The position numbers were made by a program, and so were the translations under genes. The notes under the pieces were generated by a model that worked only from the letters and a program-made list of their open reading frames with translations, was not told the origin of the DNA and did not search any database. A stretch of DNA of 64,000 bases from Micromonospora rhizosphaerae (lineage in GTDB: Bacteria; Actinomycetota; Actinomycetes; Mycobacteriales; Micromonosporaceae). Positions 1,761 through 51,434 of the stretch are shown one piece after another. The stretch is from positions 1,798,001 to 1,862,000 of the forward strand of contig NZ_FMHV01000002.1 in NCBI RefSeq assembly GCF_900091465.1. Direction: 5' to 3'. Numbering within the stretch: position 1 is the first letter of the stretch; each line of letters begins with the position of its first letter.

Positions 1761-2948
1761 ATGGATTCCCGTACCGGACTGCCTGTTGTCGGCATGGTGG
1801 GCGGAGGGCAGCTGGCCCGGATGACCCACCAGGCCGCGATCGCCCTCGGCCAGTCGCTGCGCGTGCTGGCACTCGCCCCGGACGACGGCGCCGCGCTGGT
1901 CGCGGCCGACGTCCAGTACGGCGACCACACCGACCTGGCCGCGCTGCGCACCTTCGCCAAGGGCTGCGACGTGGTCACCTTCGACCACGAGCACGTGCCG
2001 ACCGAGCACCTCCGCACCCTCGCCGACGAGGGGGTGAAGCTCTTCCCATCGGCCGACGCGCTGCTGCACGCGCAGGACAAGCGGATCATGCGGGAGCGGC
2101 TCGGTGAGCTGGGCGCCCCGAACCCCGCCTGGCGGCCGGTCACCGAGCCCGCCGACCTGGTCGGCTTCGGCGACGAGATCGGCTGGCCGGTGGTGCTGAA
2201 GGCGGCCCGGGGCGGCTACGACGGCCGGGGCGTCTGGATGGTCGAGGACGCGACGCAGGCGGCCGAGCTGGCCGGCACGCTGCTCGCCGGCGGCACCTCG
2301 CTGATCGTGGAGGCGCGGGTGCCGCTGCGCCGGGAGCTGGCGGTGCAGGTCGCGCGGTCGCCGTTCGGGCAGGTGGCGGCGTACCCGGTGGTGGAGACCG
2401 TGCAGCGGGACGGCATCTGCGTGGAGGTGCTCGCCCCCGCCCCCGGCCTGTCGGAGGAGCTGGCGGTCGCCGCCCAGCAGCTCGCCATCGACCTGGCCAC
2501 CGCGCTCGGCGTGGTCGGCCTGCTCGCGGTCGAGCTGTTCGAGGTGACCGACGCGACCGGCCGGCCGGCGATCGTGGTCAACGAGCTGGCGATGCGCCCG
2601 CACAACTCGGGGCACTGGACCATCGAGGGGGCCCGCACGTCGCAGTTCGAGCAGCACCTGCGCGCCGTGCTCGACTACCCGATGGGGGACACCTCGCTGA
2701 CCGCGCCCGTCGTGGTGATGGCGAACGTGCTCGGCGGCGAGCCGGGCGGGATGTCGATCGACGAGCGGCTGCACCACCTCTTCGCGGCCGAGCCCGGTGC
2801 CAAGGTGCACCTGTACGGCAAGCAGGTGCGGCCGGGCCGCAAGATCGGGCACGTCACGGTGCTCGGCGACGACCTGGCGGACGTCCGGGCGCGGGCCGCG
2901 CGAGCCGCCCGCCGGCTCCGGGAGGGTGACGGTGAGCGCGAGGAGTGA
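1761..2948 (+). CDS. purK: N5-carboxyaminoimidazole ribonucleotide synthetase
   Basis: ATP-grasp enzyme of purine synthesis that converts AIR, ATP and bicarbonate to N5-CAIR, the substrate of the PurE mutase encoded next. The 395-aa protein has an N-terminal G-G-G-Q-L-A-R-M nucleotide-fold motif, an ATP-grasp centre with the glycine-rich loop G-G-Y-D-G-R-G, and the conserved N-E-L-A-x-R-P-H-N-S-G-H motif. The ATG at 1761 lies 9 bases after a TAGTCT -10-like hexamer (1746-1751), so the leader is very short or absent. The last residues (G-E-R-E-E) and the stop codon lie inside the first copy of repeat family A. Confidence 0.97.
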   Translation: MDSRTGLPVVGMVGGGQLARMTHQAAIALGQSLRVLALAPDDGAALVAADVQYGDHTDLAALRTFAKGCDVVTFDHEHVPTEHLRTLADEGVKLFPSADALLHAQDKRIMRERLGELGAPNPAWRPVTEPADLVGFGDEIGWPVVLKAARGGYDGRGVWMVEDATQAAELAGTLLAGGTSLIVEARVPLRRELAVQVARSPFGQVAAYPVVETVQRDGICVEVLAPAPGLSEELAVAAQQLAIDLATALGVVGLLAVELFEVTDATGRPAIVVNELAMRPHNSGHWTIEGARTSQFEQHLRAVLDYPMGDTSLTAPVVVMANVLGGEPGGMSIDERLHHLFAAEPGAKVHLYGKQVRPGRKIGHVTVLGDDLADVRARAARAARRLREGDGEREE

Positions 2949-3044
2949 GCTTGCGAGCCCCGCAGTCGCGAACGAGAGGCGGGCCCGGTGAGCGCGAGGA
3001 GTGAGCTTGCGAGCCCCGCAGTCGGCGAACGAAAGGCGGGCCCG
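2932..3044 (+). repeat. Repeat family A, two tandem copies at the purK-purE junction
   Basis: Two copies of a ~56-bp unit stand head to tail (2932-2987 and 2988-3044). They differ by one inserted G and one G-to-A change. The unit begins GTGAGCGCGAGGAGTGAGC, continues through TTGCGAGCCCCGCAGTC and ends GCGGGCCCG. The first copy supplies the last codons and TGA stop of purK. A third partial start (GTGAGC at 3045) is the purE start. Related copies lie at 39728-39786 and 51383-51434. Confidence 0.9.
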
Positions 3045-3536
3045 GTGAGCACCGTCGGTCTCATCATGGGCAGCGACTCCGACTGGCCGGTCATGAAGGC
3101 CGCCGCGGAGGCGCTGGACGAGTTCGAGGTGCCCTACGAGGTCGGCGTCGTCTCCGCGCACCGGACCCCGGTCAAGATGATCGAGTACGGCCGTGCCGCC
3201 GCCGGCCGGGGCGTCAAGGTGATCATCGCCGGGGCGGGTGGGGCCGCCCACCTGCCCGGCATGGTCGCCTCAGTCACCCCGCTGCCGGTGATCGGCGTGC
3301 CGGTCCCGCTGAAGTACCTCGACGGGATGGACTCCCTGCTGTCCATCGTGCAGATGCCGGCCGGCGTCCCGGTGGCCACCGTGTCGATCGGCAATGCGCG
3401 CAACGCCGGGCTGCTCGCCGTGCGCATCCTGGCCGCCTCGGACCCGGCGCTGCTCGAGCGGATGGCCGTGTACCAGGCGAGCCTGGAGGAGTTGGTCGCC
3501 GAGAAGGACGCCGCCCTGCGCGCCACCCTCGGCTGA
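3045..3536 (+). CDS. purE: N5-carboxyaminoimidazole ribonucleotide mutase
   Basis: Class I PurE moves the carboxyl group of N5-CAIR to give CAIR. The 163-aa protein opens with [14 protein letters not shown], the phosphate-binding motif of PurE, followed by the conserved S-A-H-R-T-P loop with the catalytic His and the [10 protein letters not shown] segment. The GTG at 3045 gives the standard length and has GAAAGG 6-10 bases upstream. A GTG at 2988 would add 19 residues made only of repeat A. It forms an operon with purK. Confidence 0.97.
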
Positions 3537-3567: not shown

Positions 3568-3975
3568 GCCGCGGGATGGGCGGCGGGACTGCGACTCGGC
3601 GGGGCTCGCGACGTGAGTGACATCGGTGGCGGAATTACTCATCGTGGTCGGCGTGTCGGCACCCCGAGCCTCCCATACCGCCTTGCTCTGCTGCCCTCCA
3701 CGCAACACATCCCCTGAGCTCGTGTTTCCTGTTCGTTCAGAAGCCGAGGCGCGGGGGCAGCGTTCACCATCGGTAGCTGTTGCGTGGGCTGCAGCAGAGC
3801 AAAGGGCGGTACGAGGTGGCTGACTACCTCCCTGGCCGACACCGACAGTGACAGGCGCGGACCCGCGGAGTGAGCTGCGGAGGCAGCTCAACCAGCCGGA
3901 CCCCTCTGCCGGCGGTCACGCTCGTAGCCGGACCCCTCTGCCCGACCGCGACGGTGGTCCAATGACCCTCCGTTC
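3568..3975. other. Non-coding gap between convergent purE and the large membrane protein gene
   Basis: No frame here has a start with a ribosome-binding site and a recognisable product. The stretch is less GC-rich than its neighbours. It holds two copies of a 16-base direct repeat (GCCGGACCCCTCTGCC at about 3896 and 3926, period 30). I see no RNA gene. Confidence 0.5.
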
Positions 3976-38820: not shown

Positions 38821-39728
38821 CCGCTCTCGCGCACGTACCGACCGGATCGGGGCAGTCGGCGGCACCGCCGGCGCCCCGGCGCGGGCGGCATCGGCTGCTG
38901 CCGTACCTGCTGCTGCTGCCGGGCGCGGCCTGGCTGCTGCTCTTCTTCGCCGTGCCGCTGCTCCAGCTCGCCGCGGCCAGCCTCTACGACCCGAGCGGCT
39001 CGCTCTCCACCGGGTACGCGATGACCTGGGCGATCGACAACTATCCCACGGCGCTGGAGGCGTACTGGCCGCACTTCCTCCGGTCGTTCGTCTACTCCGC
39101 GATCGCGCTGGTGCTGGCCCTGCTGATGGGCTACCCCCTGGCGTACGCGATCGCGCAGAAGGCCGGCCGGTGGAAGAACCTGCTGCTGGTCTGCGTGGTC
39201 GCGCCGATGTTCACCAGCTTCCTGGTGCGCACCCTGGCCTGGAAGACCATCCTGTCGGACAACGGCTGGCTGGTCGGGCTGCTGCGGGACGTGCACCTGC
39301 TCGGGCCCGACGGCCGGCTGCTGGCCACTCCGGTGGCGGTGGTGCTCGGCCTGACGTACAACTTCCTGCCGTTCCTGGTGCTGCCGCTGTACGCGAGCCT
39401 CGAGCGGCTGGACCACCGGCTGCTGGAGGCGGCGAGCGACCTCTACGCCAGCCCGCTGCGCGCGTTCCAGAAGGTCACCCTGCCCCTGTCGATGCCCGGC
39501 CTGATCGCCGGCACGCTGCTCTTCTTCATCCCGGCGACCGGTGACTACATCAACGCCGAGCTGCTCGGCACCCCGAACGAATACATGATCGGCAACGTCA
39601 TCGACTCGGCGTTCCTGGTCCGGCTGGACTACCCGCAGGGCGCGGCCCTGTCGTTCCTGCTGATGGCGGCGATCCTCCTGGTGGTCTTCGTCTACCTGCT
39701 CAAGGCGGGCACGGAGGAGGTGCTCTGA
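38817..39728 (+). CDS. potB: Polyamine ABC transporter permease 1
   Basis: The 303-aa membrane protein has six hydrophobic segments and the permease EAA loop (L-L-E-A-A-S-D-L-Y-A-S-P-L-R-A-F-Q-K-V-T-L-P-L-S). Its ATG overlaps the potA stop as ATGA. Its stop codon lies at the edge of repeat A copy 3. Confidence 0.95.
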   Translation: MTALAHVPTGSGQSAAPPAPRRGRHRLLPYLLLLPGAAWLLLFFAVPLLQLAAASLYDPSGSLSTGYAMTWAIDNYPTALEAYWPHFLRSFVYSAIALVLALLMGYPLAYAIAQKAGRWKNLLLVCVVAPMFTSFLVRTLAWKTILSDNGWLVGLLRDVHLLGPDGRLLATPVAVVLGLTYNFLPFLVLPLYASLERLDHRLLEAASDLYASPLRAFQKVTLPLSMPGLIAGTLLFFIPATGDYINAELLGTPNEYMIGNVIDSAFLVRLDYPQGAALSFLLMAAILLVVFVYLLKAGTEEVL

Positions 39729-39790
39729 TGAGCGCGAGGAGTGCAGCGAAGCGGAGCCCCGCAGTCGCGAATGAAGGTGGGCTCTGATGA
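39722..39790 (+). repeat. Repeat family A, copy 3, at the potB-potC junction
   Basis: A copy of the junction repeat (GAGCGCGAGGAGTGCAGCG, then GCGGAGCCCCGCAGTCGCGA and GAAGGTGGG) lies between direct 9-10-base flanks CTCTGATGA at about 39722-39731 and 39781-39790. The flank is the potB-stop/potC-start overlap itself, now present on both sides. Confidence 0.88.
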
Positions 39791-51370: not shown

Positions 51371-51382
51371 GAACTGTGCCTT

Positions 51383-51434
51383 CTTTCGTTCGCGACTGCG
51401 GGGCTCGCAAACCCGGCTCACTCCTCGCGCTTCA
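51383..51434 (-). repeat. Repeat family A, copy 4, between aldehyde dehydrogenase and gabT
   Basis: On the minus strand the copy reads TGAAGCGCGAGGAGTGAGC, then a 5-base change, then TTGCGAGCCCCGCAGTCGCG and AACGAAAG. It begins immediately after the TAG stop of the aldehyde dehydrogenase and ends 13 bases before the gabT start, providing GAAAGAAGG as ribosome-binding site. Confidence 0.88.

Follow-up and report, generated by a model that had tools for sequence, protein, structure and literature searches.

A putative MIRU-like mobile element with covarying arms at stop/start overlaps in Micromonospora and related genera

Tandem units between purK and purE

The window, i.e., the whole 64-kb stretch of Micromonospora rhizosphaerae DNA analyzed here, contains purK (1761..2948, + strand; Pfam PF02222 and PF17769) followed by purE (3045..3536, + strand; PF00731). 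The space between the two genes raises the question of how a tandem repeat can supply the end of one gene, resemble the start of the next and leave both genes readable. Two units lie head to tail, unit 1 (2932..2987, + strand, 56 bp) and unit 2 (2988..3044, + strand, 57 bp), whose only differences are a substitution and an inserted G (~96.5% identity). The last codons of purK and its TGA (2946–2948) are within unit 1. Both units begin with GTGAGC, as purE does at position 3045, and each holds a ribosome-site-like signal, GAGAGG at 2974–2979 in unit 1 and GAAAGG at 3031–3036 in unit 2. All of these features, proposed in the sequence-only reading of the locus, are confirmed. Its explanation, that the unit is a duplicate of the purK–purE junction, gives way to that of a dispersed element inserted in a stop/start overlap, as described below.

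Unit 1 consists of a 5′ arm, GTGAGC (2932..2937, + strand), a conserved core of the short loop type, GCGAGGAGTGAGC-TT-GCGAGCCCCGCAGTC (2938..2967, + strand), a 3′ arm, GCGAAC (2968..2973, + strand), and a tail (2974..2987, + strand) including the GAGAGG motif. The pairing of the two arms is deduced from covariation over the family. GTGAGC is the element's own 5′ arm, which would pair with GCGAAC, and not a copied purE start. A mini-ORF runs from the GTG at 2932 to the TGA at 2989–2991, giving a 4-nt overlap with the GTG of unit 2. Unit 2 is in the same frame as purE, so that purE may have a 19-residue N-terminal extension through the unit (ORF 2988–3536).

The array is untypical of the family at both ends. 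At the upstream end, the stop codon of purK is the second TGA of unit 1, not the first; this second TGA is found at +15, in another frame, in units with the short and the +5 loops. At the downstream end, the 57-nt unit 2 is in frame with purE and forms no 4-nt overlap with it. The tandem copy at this locus is secondary. A cmscan search of positions 2700–3300 against Rfam gave only two matches, both far under the gathering score, and thus a described Rfam RNA was ruled out.

The same junction was compared among 61 genomes of the genus. The purK stop is within 9 nt of the position for a plain 4-nt overlap in 29 of them (exactly there in 22), and the plain overlaps mostly read GTGAGC or ATGAGC. 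Nine genomes clearly carry the element (two units in 2, one unit in 7), two carry a remnant (nhmmer E ≤ 5e-4), and 21 have a different, longer spacer with no clear match. The unit is therefore not the normal sequence of this junction in all relatives, and bare overlaps exist.

Two further repeats downstream of purE in the window should be mentioned. An imperfect inverted repeat of 25 nt (88%) with arms 70 nt apart is located at 3683–3802; 11 additional rows from the rest of the genome show short stretches resembling its arms, suggesting that it may be another dispersed palindrome. A direct repeat, AGCCGGACCCCTCTGCC, is present in two copies, 32 nt from start to start, at 3894–3942.

Dispersal of the unit and its empty sites

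A BLAST search of the own genome with the 119-mer gave 49 rows, and the best non-self match (E = 1.7e-47) is far beyond chance. With nhmmer applied to the stretches around the BLAST matches, at least 62 units were found in at least 41 clusters; this tally, which includes nested and partial units, is a lower bound, with 40 of 97 candidates scored. Four of the units are in the window. The third (39728..39786, + strand) has 59 nt, the arms ATGAGC/GCGAAT and a loop longer by 3 nt, and is placed at the TGATG overlap of two transport-permease genes. The fourth (51371..51434, − strand) directly follows the stop codon (TAG) of an aldehyde dehydrogenase gene and precedes a class-III aminotransferase gene. 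Both sites are empty in the close relative G053.

Two nested copies are seen in the own genome at C2:752144–752180 (L088) and 1246931–1246969 (L097), where one unit seemingly lies inside another. The inner units are inserted after CCC(C) of the outer core, each with matched arms of its own.

In G053, the element is absent from all 35 own-genome places searched, among which the site for 4813834 has a doubtful ortholog. The comparison covers 35 of the 41 places, the purK–purE junction among them (542421, 752144, 6259888, 6168983, 7003198 and 7052833 were left out). Twenty-three of the empty sites are 4-nt NTGA stop/start overlaps and one is TGATG; the other 11 are neither 4-nt nor 1-nt overlaps, which counts against the coupling-cassette reading given below. 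Three of these 11 are places inside genes where the own genome has in-frame insertions (551540, 3149960 and 7029481), with a net gain of 54, 54 and 57 nt, respectively, relative to G053. In another genome (G025), several of the matches are split, so some of the own-genome sites are filled there. The element is thus patchy in its presence even among close species. Pairs of filled and empty sites are established by these alignments, and the element may still be mobile at present.

The distribution beyond the species was examined with a covariance model built from 45 own-genome units. In a sample of the family Micromonosporaceae, known for antibiotic producers, the element was found in 77 of 150 genomes and 27 of 44 genera, with no more than 40 matches counted in any one genome. 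In a sample of the class, 15 of 296 genomes gave a match, three of them from the own genus. Two others, G376 and G454, both of another family (f36), carry tandem copies, and ten have single weak matches (E from 2e-5 to 8.4e-4). The ten weak matches, all outside f36, mostly look like chance, though two of the loci (L183 and L188) share the core by eye. A strict core pattern was found in six of the 296 genomes, three of the own genus and three of f36, with none for the reversed control; it was found in 0 of 25 sampled genomes of other families of the same order, in no viral contigs and in 1 of 72,556 plasmid records. A phage search gave no match. Exact 44-mers occur in 101 named stretches, and the taxa among the 80 of these listed are Micromonospora, Verrucosispora, Plantactinospora and an unclassified Micromonosporaceae bacterium. 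No published description of the family was found in a literature search of limited depth, and an earlier publication is possible.

A similar core is seen at eight f36 loci (L182, L206, L212, L213, L214, L223, L227 and L235, in G454, G470 and G376), some of them at gene starts. There, the core is slightly different from that in the own family and is flanked by complementary arms of 6–10 nt that are wholly different between loci, such as GTCTTC/GAAGAC, GGGCGGCG/CGCCGCCC and GGCCTGG/CCAGGCC.

A purely local tandem duplication of the purK–purE junction would account for units that each begin like purE. It has virtually no chance of being correct, and was ruled out, since the same sequence is present at no fewer than 41 places in the own genome and in many species and since relatives have the bare junction with no unit.

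Reading frames and loop lengths

Coding frames around the copies were scored by a codon model whose training set was the window plus own-genome stretches. Pooling the window and the own-genome stretches with the loci found by model and by pattern gave 134 clusters, or 82 loci after merging by flank similarity. Tandem arrays of two to four units are present at 33 of the 82 loci. Six loci were dropped for unclear coding, leaving 76 with both flanks clearly coding. Both flanking genes run with the element at 72 of the 76; the upstream gene is opposed at three and both genes are opposed at one.

Among the 72 co-oriented loci, the first TGA of the unit (N2–N4, where N1 is the unit's first base) is the stop codon of the upstream gene at 54, and the downstream gene is in frame for a 4-nt overlap with the mini-ORF stop at 51. 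Both features (the canonical upstream stop and the −4 coupling frame) occur together at 44 loci, i.e., 44 of the 54 (p about 5e-13). Half of the 72 loci are from the own genome, where the idea arose. The upstream stop is canonical at 24/36 own-genome loci, 20 of these 24 with the −4 frame, and at 30/36 loci from other genomes, 24 of these 30 with the −4 frame. Other genera of the family contribute 14 loci to the 72, and both features are found at 12 of them, two of the 12 with a weak upstream coding signal. A fresh set was taken from named genomes (80 of 101 named loci in 76 clusters, of which 23 were left after removing matches to the earlier set). It gave 22/23 co-oriented loci, the canonical upstream stop at 15/22 and the −4 frame at 13 of these 15. 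The NCBI annotation of plasmid pLB1 of Micromonospora terminaliae independently gives the same geometry: the last base of an acyltransferase gene is 1204, the first of the unit 1201 and the first of the next gene 1260, so that the stop is at N2–N4 and the next start is at N1+59.

In 42 of 61 last units, the end of the mini-ORF and the downstream start share 4 nt, and in 10 of the 61 the frame continues into the next gene. As window controls, 1 of 37 GTGAGC and 14 of 489 RTGA sites are at such overlaps. The preference for stop/start junctions anticipated from the purK–purE locus thus extends to the family, as does the observation that both neighbors remain translatable, the unit bringing stop, ribosome-site-like and start signals of its own. 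Two counts weigh against the cassette reading: 18 of the 72 co-oriented loci are outside the canonical upstream frame, and within the tandem arrays the 4-nt overlap is found at only 26 of 46 internal boundaries.

From these geometries, we consider it very probable that the unit is a MIRU-like, non-autonomous mobile element of Micromonospora and relatives that acts as a self-contained coupling cassette. The element, mostly 53–65 bp, would insert mostly where the stop and start of co-oriented neighbors overlap (NTGA). Its own NTGA would then serve both as the end of the upstream gene and as the start of the mini-ORF, which would cross the hairpin and end in a TGA with a 4-nt overlap of the downstream start, with a GAAAGG-like ribosome site of the cassette preceding that start. 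A ribosome leaving the first gene could re-start on the mini-ORF and then on the second gene, and insertion would for that reason cost little.

The lengths of the units should be noted in this regard. The loop has mainly three lengths, short, +3 nt and +5 nt. At loci with the canonical upstream stop, the distance between the first base of the last unit and the downstream start was measured; the latter is in range at 65 of the 72 loci, 51 of them with that stop, and for three of the 51 the loop type is unassigned. The distance is 53 or 56 in 8 of 10 units with the short loop, 59 or 62 in 11 of 11 with the +3 loop, and 59, 62 or 65 in 22 of 27 with the +5 loop, all in phase. Some of the remaining units read in frame into the next gene. 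A distance of 61, expected for the +5 type from the loop change alone, never occurs; the tail has therefore adjusted to hold the phase. Differences of 5 nt in the loop are offset by changes in the tail and the frame is kept; translation through the unit thus appears to be selected. The +3 and +5 loops change the encoded peptide, so what is kept seems to be the open frame, not the peptide. A function of the peptide itself was ruled out, since the loop types shift the frame and hence the peptide.

Survival alone would also yield in-phase lengths. The element could be a passive parasite that hits TGA-like targets generally, the overlap insertions being those that survive selection and the mini-ORF being harmless, not useful. 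The three in-frame intragenic insertions (above) also survive, and any benefit of the element is putative. Against this explanation, to which we give somewhat less than an even chance, insertion is very rare at intergenic sites that lack two co-oriented genes (4/76), though RTGA is equally common on the antisense strand. This near-absence suggests a real choice of target, and it does not separate mere survival from a useful function.

Filled and empty sites, which number in the dozens in these soil and plant bacteria, make it directly testable how the repeats choose stop/start sites and how they affect the ratio of neighboring proteins. Caution is also advisable in annotation, as the units can yield false N-terminal extensions and altered C-termini.

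Arms, movement and likeness to known systems

The core is flanked by covarying arm pairs: GTGAGC/GCGAAC, ATGAGC/GCGAAT, GCGAGC/GCGAGC, GTGAGT/ACGAAC and others. The first of these is the commonest, in 94 of 176 distinct units. In the ten-pair structure, 97.8% of cells pair; five pairs are changed on both sides (reached by 2 of 500 shuffles), and the covariation score was reached by none of 500 shuffles. Of the 234 positions in 39 distinct arm pairs, 140 pair, compared with 116 in permutations, and none of 2000 permutations reached the observed number. Folding energies are less informative. Among six single sequences compared with shuffles, a clearly better fold is seen for just one, the copy at 39728 (z = −1.9 as RNA and −2.3 as DNA), and z is from 0.87 to −1.5 for the other five. 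Thermodynamic stability was accordingly set aside as weak evidence, and the putative hairpin rests on the covariation.

At an orthologous locus next to a release-factor gene (PF03462, PF00472), two of six pairs are changed on both sides among six genomes while the 30-nt core is unchanged, with a covariation score reached by 4 of 500 shuffles. The element adjoins this gene in at least six genomes (C2:1896306, L096, in the own genome, and L244, L246, L248, L261 and L263). It is opposed to the gene in the own genome, and arrays are found in some of the six.

Compensatory changes at the release-factor locus, a nearly invariant core beside covarying arms (140/234 versus 116) and the recurrence of the core with other arms in the distant actinobacterial family f36 are all compatible with an RNA or DNA structure that has its own function, such as a protein-binding hairpin or a regulator, its placement at junctions being incidental. 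The patchy presence even between close species, the frame preservation, which points to translation, and the mostly unremarkable folding energies make such a function rather doubtful. Alternatively, it might be template switching within the palindrome as it replicates, and not selection, that maintains the arm complementarity. Template-switch correction could give changes on both sides without any function, and whole-arm replacements with an intact core do exist, namely GCTGAC/GGCAGC, in an own-genome copy beside a start GTGGCTGAC, and GCGCGG/CCGCGC. This explanation is unlikely: tandem G-A mismatches, which correction should erase, persist in the arms of most copies.

The arms either evolve fast under a pairing constraint or are renewed at insertion. 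Fast evolution is better supported, since ordinary copies hold GTGAGC even where the target reads otherwise. The bolder form of renewal is that the element targets coupling sites and rebuilds its arms, taking the 5′ arm from the target and making the 3′ arm as its complement, with only the 30-nt core inherited. If true, it would account for core-identical copies with wholly different, matching arms and for the locus-specific arms in f36; we think it improbable, and we know of no counterpart of such a self-templating mode of insertion.

The last bases of the tail, those adjoining the downstream start, were compared with the bases immediately preceding the element. Over 46 loci, match runs total 77, compared with 25.7 for permuted pairs (reached in 0 of 3000 permutations), and the matches are significant singly only at positions −1 to −3. 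In some copies of the family, the 3′ end of the tail duplicates the target. As a group, the matches exceed those of permuted pairs, so a target duplication is likely, its length uncertain and mostly blurred; a fixed long duplication is unsupported, given the few positions that are significant singly. The best single example of target duplication is at a locus in another genus of the family (L180 in G189), where GGGGTGGCACC and GTGA (11 + 4 nt) are found on both sides of a single unit.

The element as we interpret it, a mobile coupling cassette, can be compared with four known systems. REP sequences are dispersed imperfect hairpins, single or in arrays, and are extragenic. The present family likewise consists of dispersed imperfect hairpins, single or arrayed, whereas the Y1 transposase of RAYT type (PF01797) has no match in the own genome. 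PF01797 is present in 40 of 150 family genomes and in 4 of 16 genus genomes; it was not found in 11 of the 15 genus genomes sampled besides the own one, while all 16 have at least nine element matches. A REP/RAYT identity was ruled out on this basis. The family resembles MITEs in its small size, the lack of a transposase gene, the inverted arms and the signs of target duplication, the last seen as a group over the 46 loci with no fixed length. It differs from them in that its arms vary by copy instead of being fixed terminal repeats, and in that its target is a translation signal.

Rickettsia palindromic elements are described as mobile and palindromic, about 150 bp long, able to sit in frame within genes, and encoding a conserved peptide (PMC10969869). 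The in-frame intragenic copies at 3 of the 41 own-genome places are a likeness to them; the present family differs in having no conserved peptide, as the frames differ by loop type, and in that its copies are mostly intergenic.

The closest likeness is to MIRUs. A review describes MIRUs as apparently mobile repeats at start codons with an internal ORF coupled at −4 nt (PMC12548453). In another account, the units named are of 77 and 53 bp, several units can also lie between two genes of one operon, and MIRUs are said to be confined to the M. tuberculosis complex and M. leprae (PMC4213456). Units of the present family are similarly short, dispersed, often tandem (arrays at 33/82 loci) and placed between neighbors in the direction of the genes (72/76). 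They also insert at the stop/start overlap with an internal ORF at −4 nt, a likeness of geometry only. The fixed core with covarying arms may be a difference. The family would work like MIRUs and is not filed as a MIRU, since any homology between the two is putative and since MIRUs are described as limited to a few mycobacteria. This comparison indicates that the MIRU way of life, in which a repeat survives because it leaves translational coupling intact, extends beyond a few mycobacteria and is widespread in Micromonosporaceae as well.
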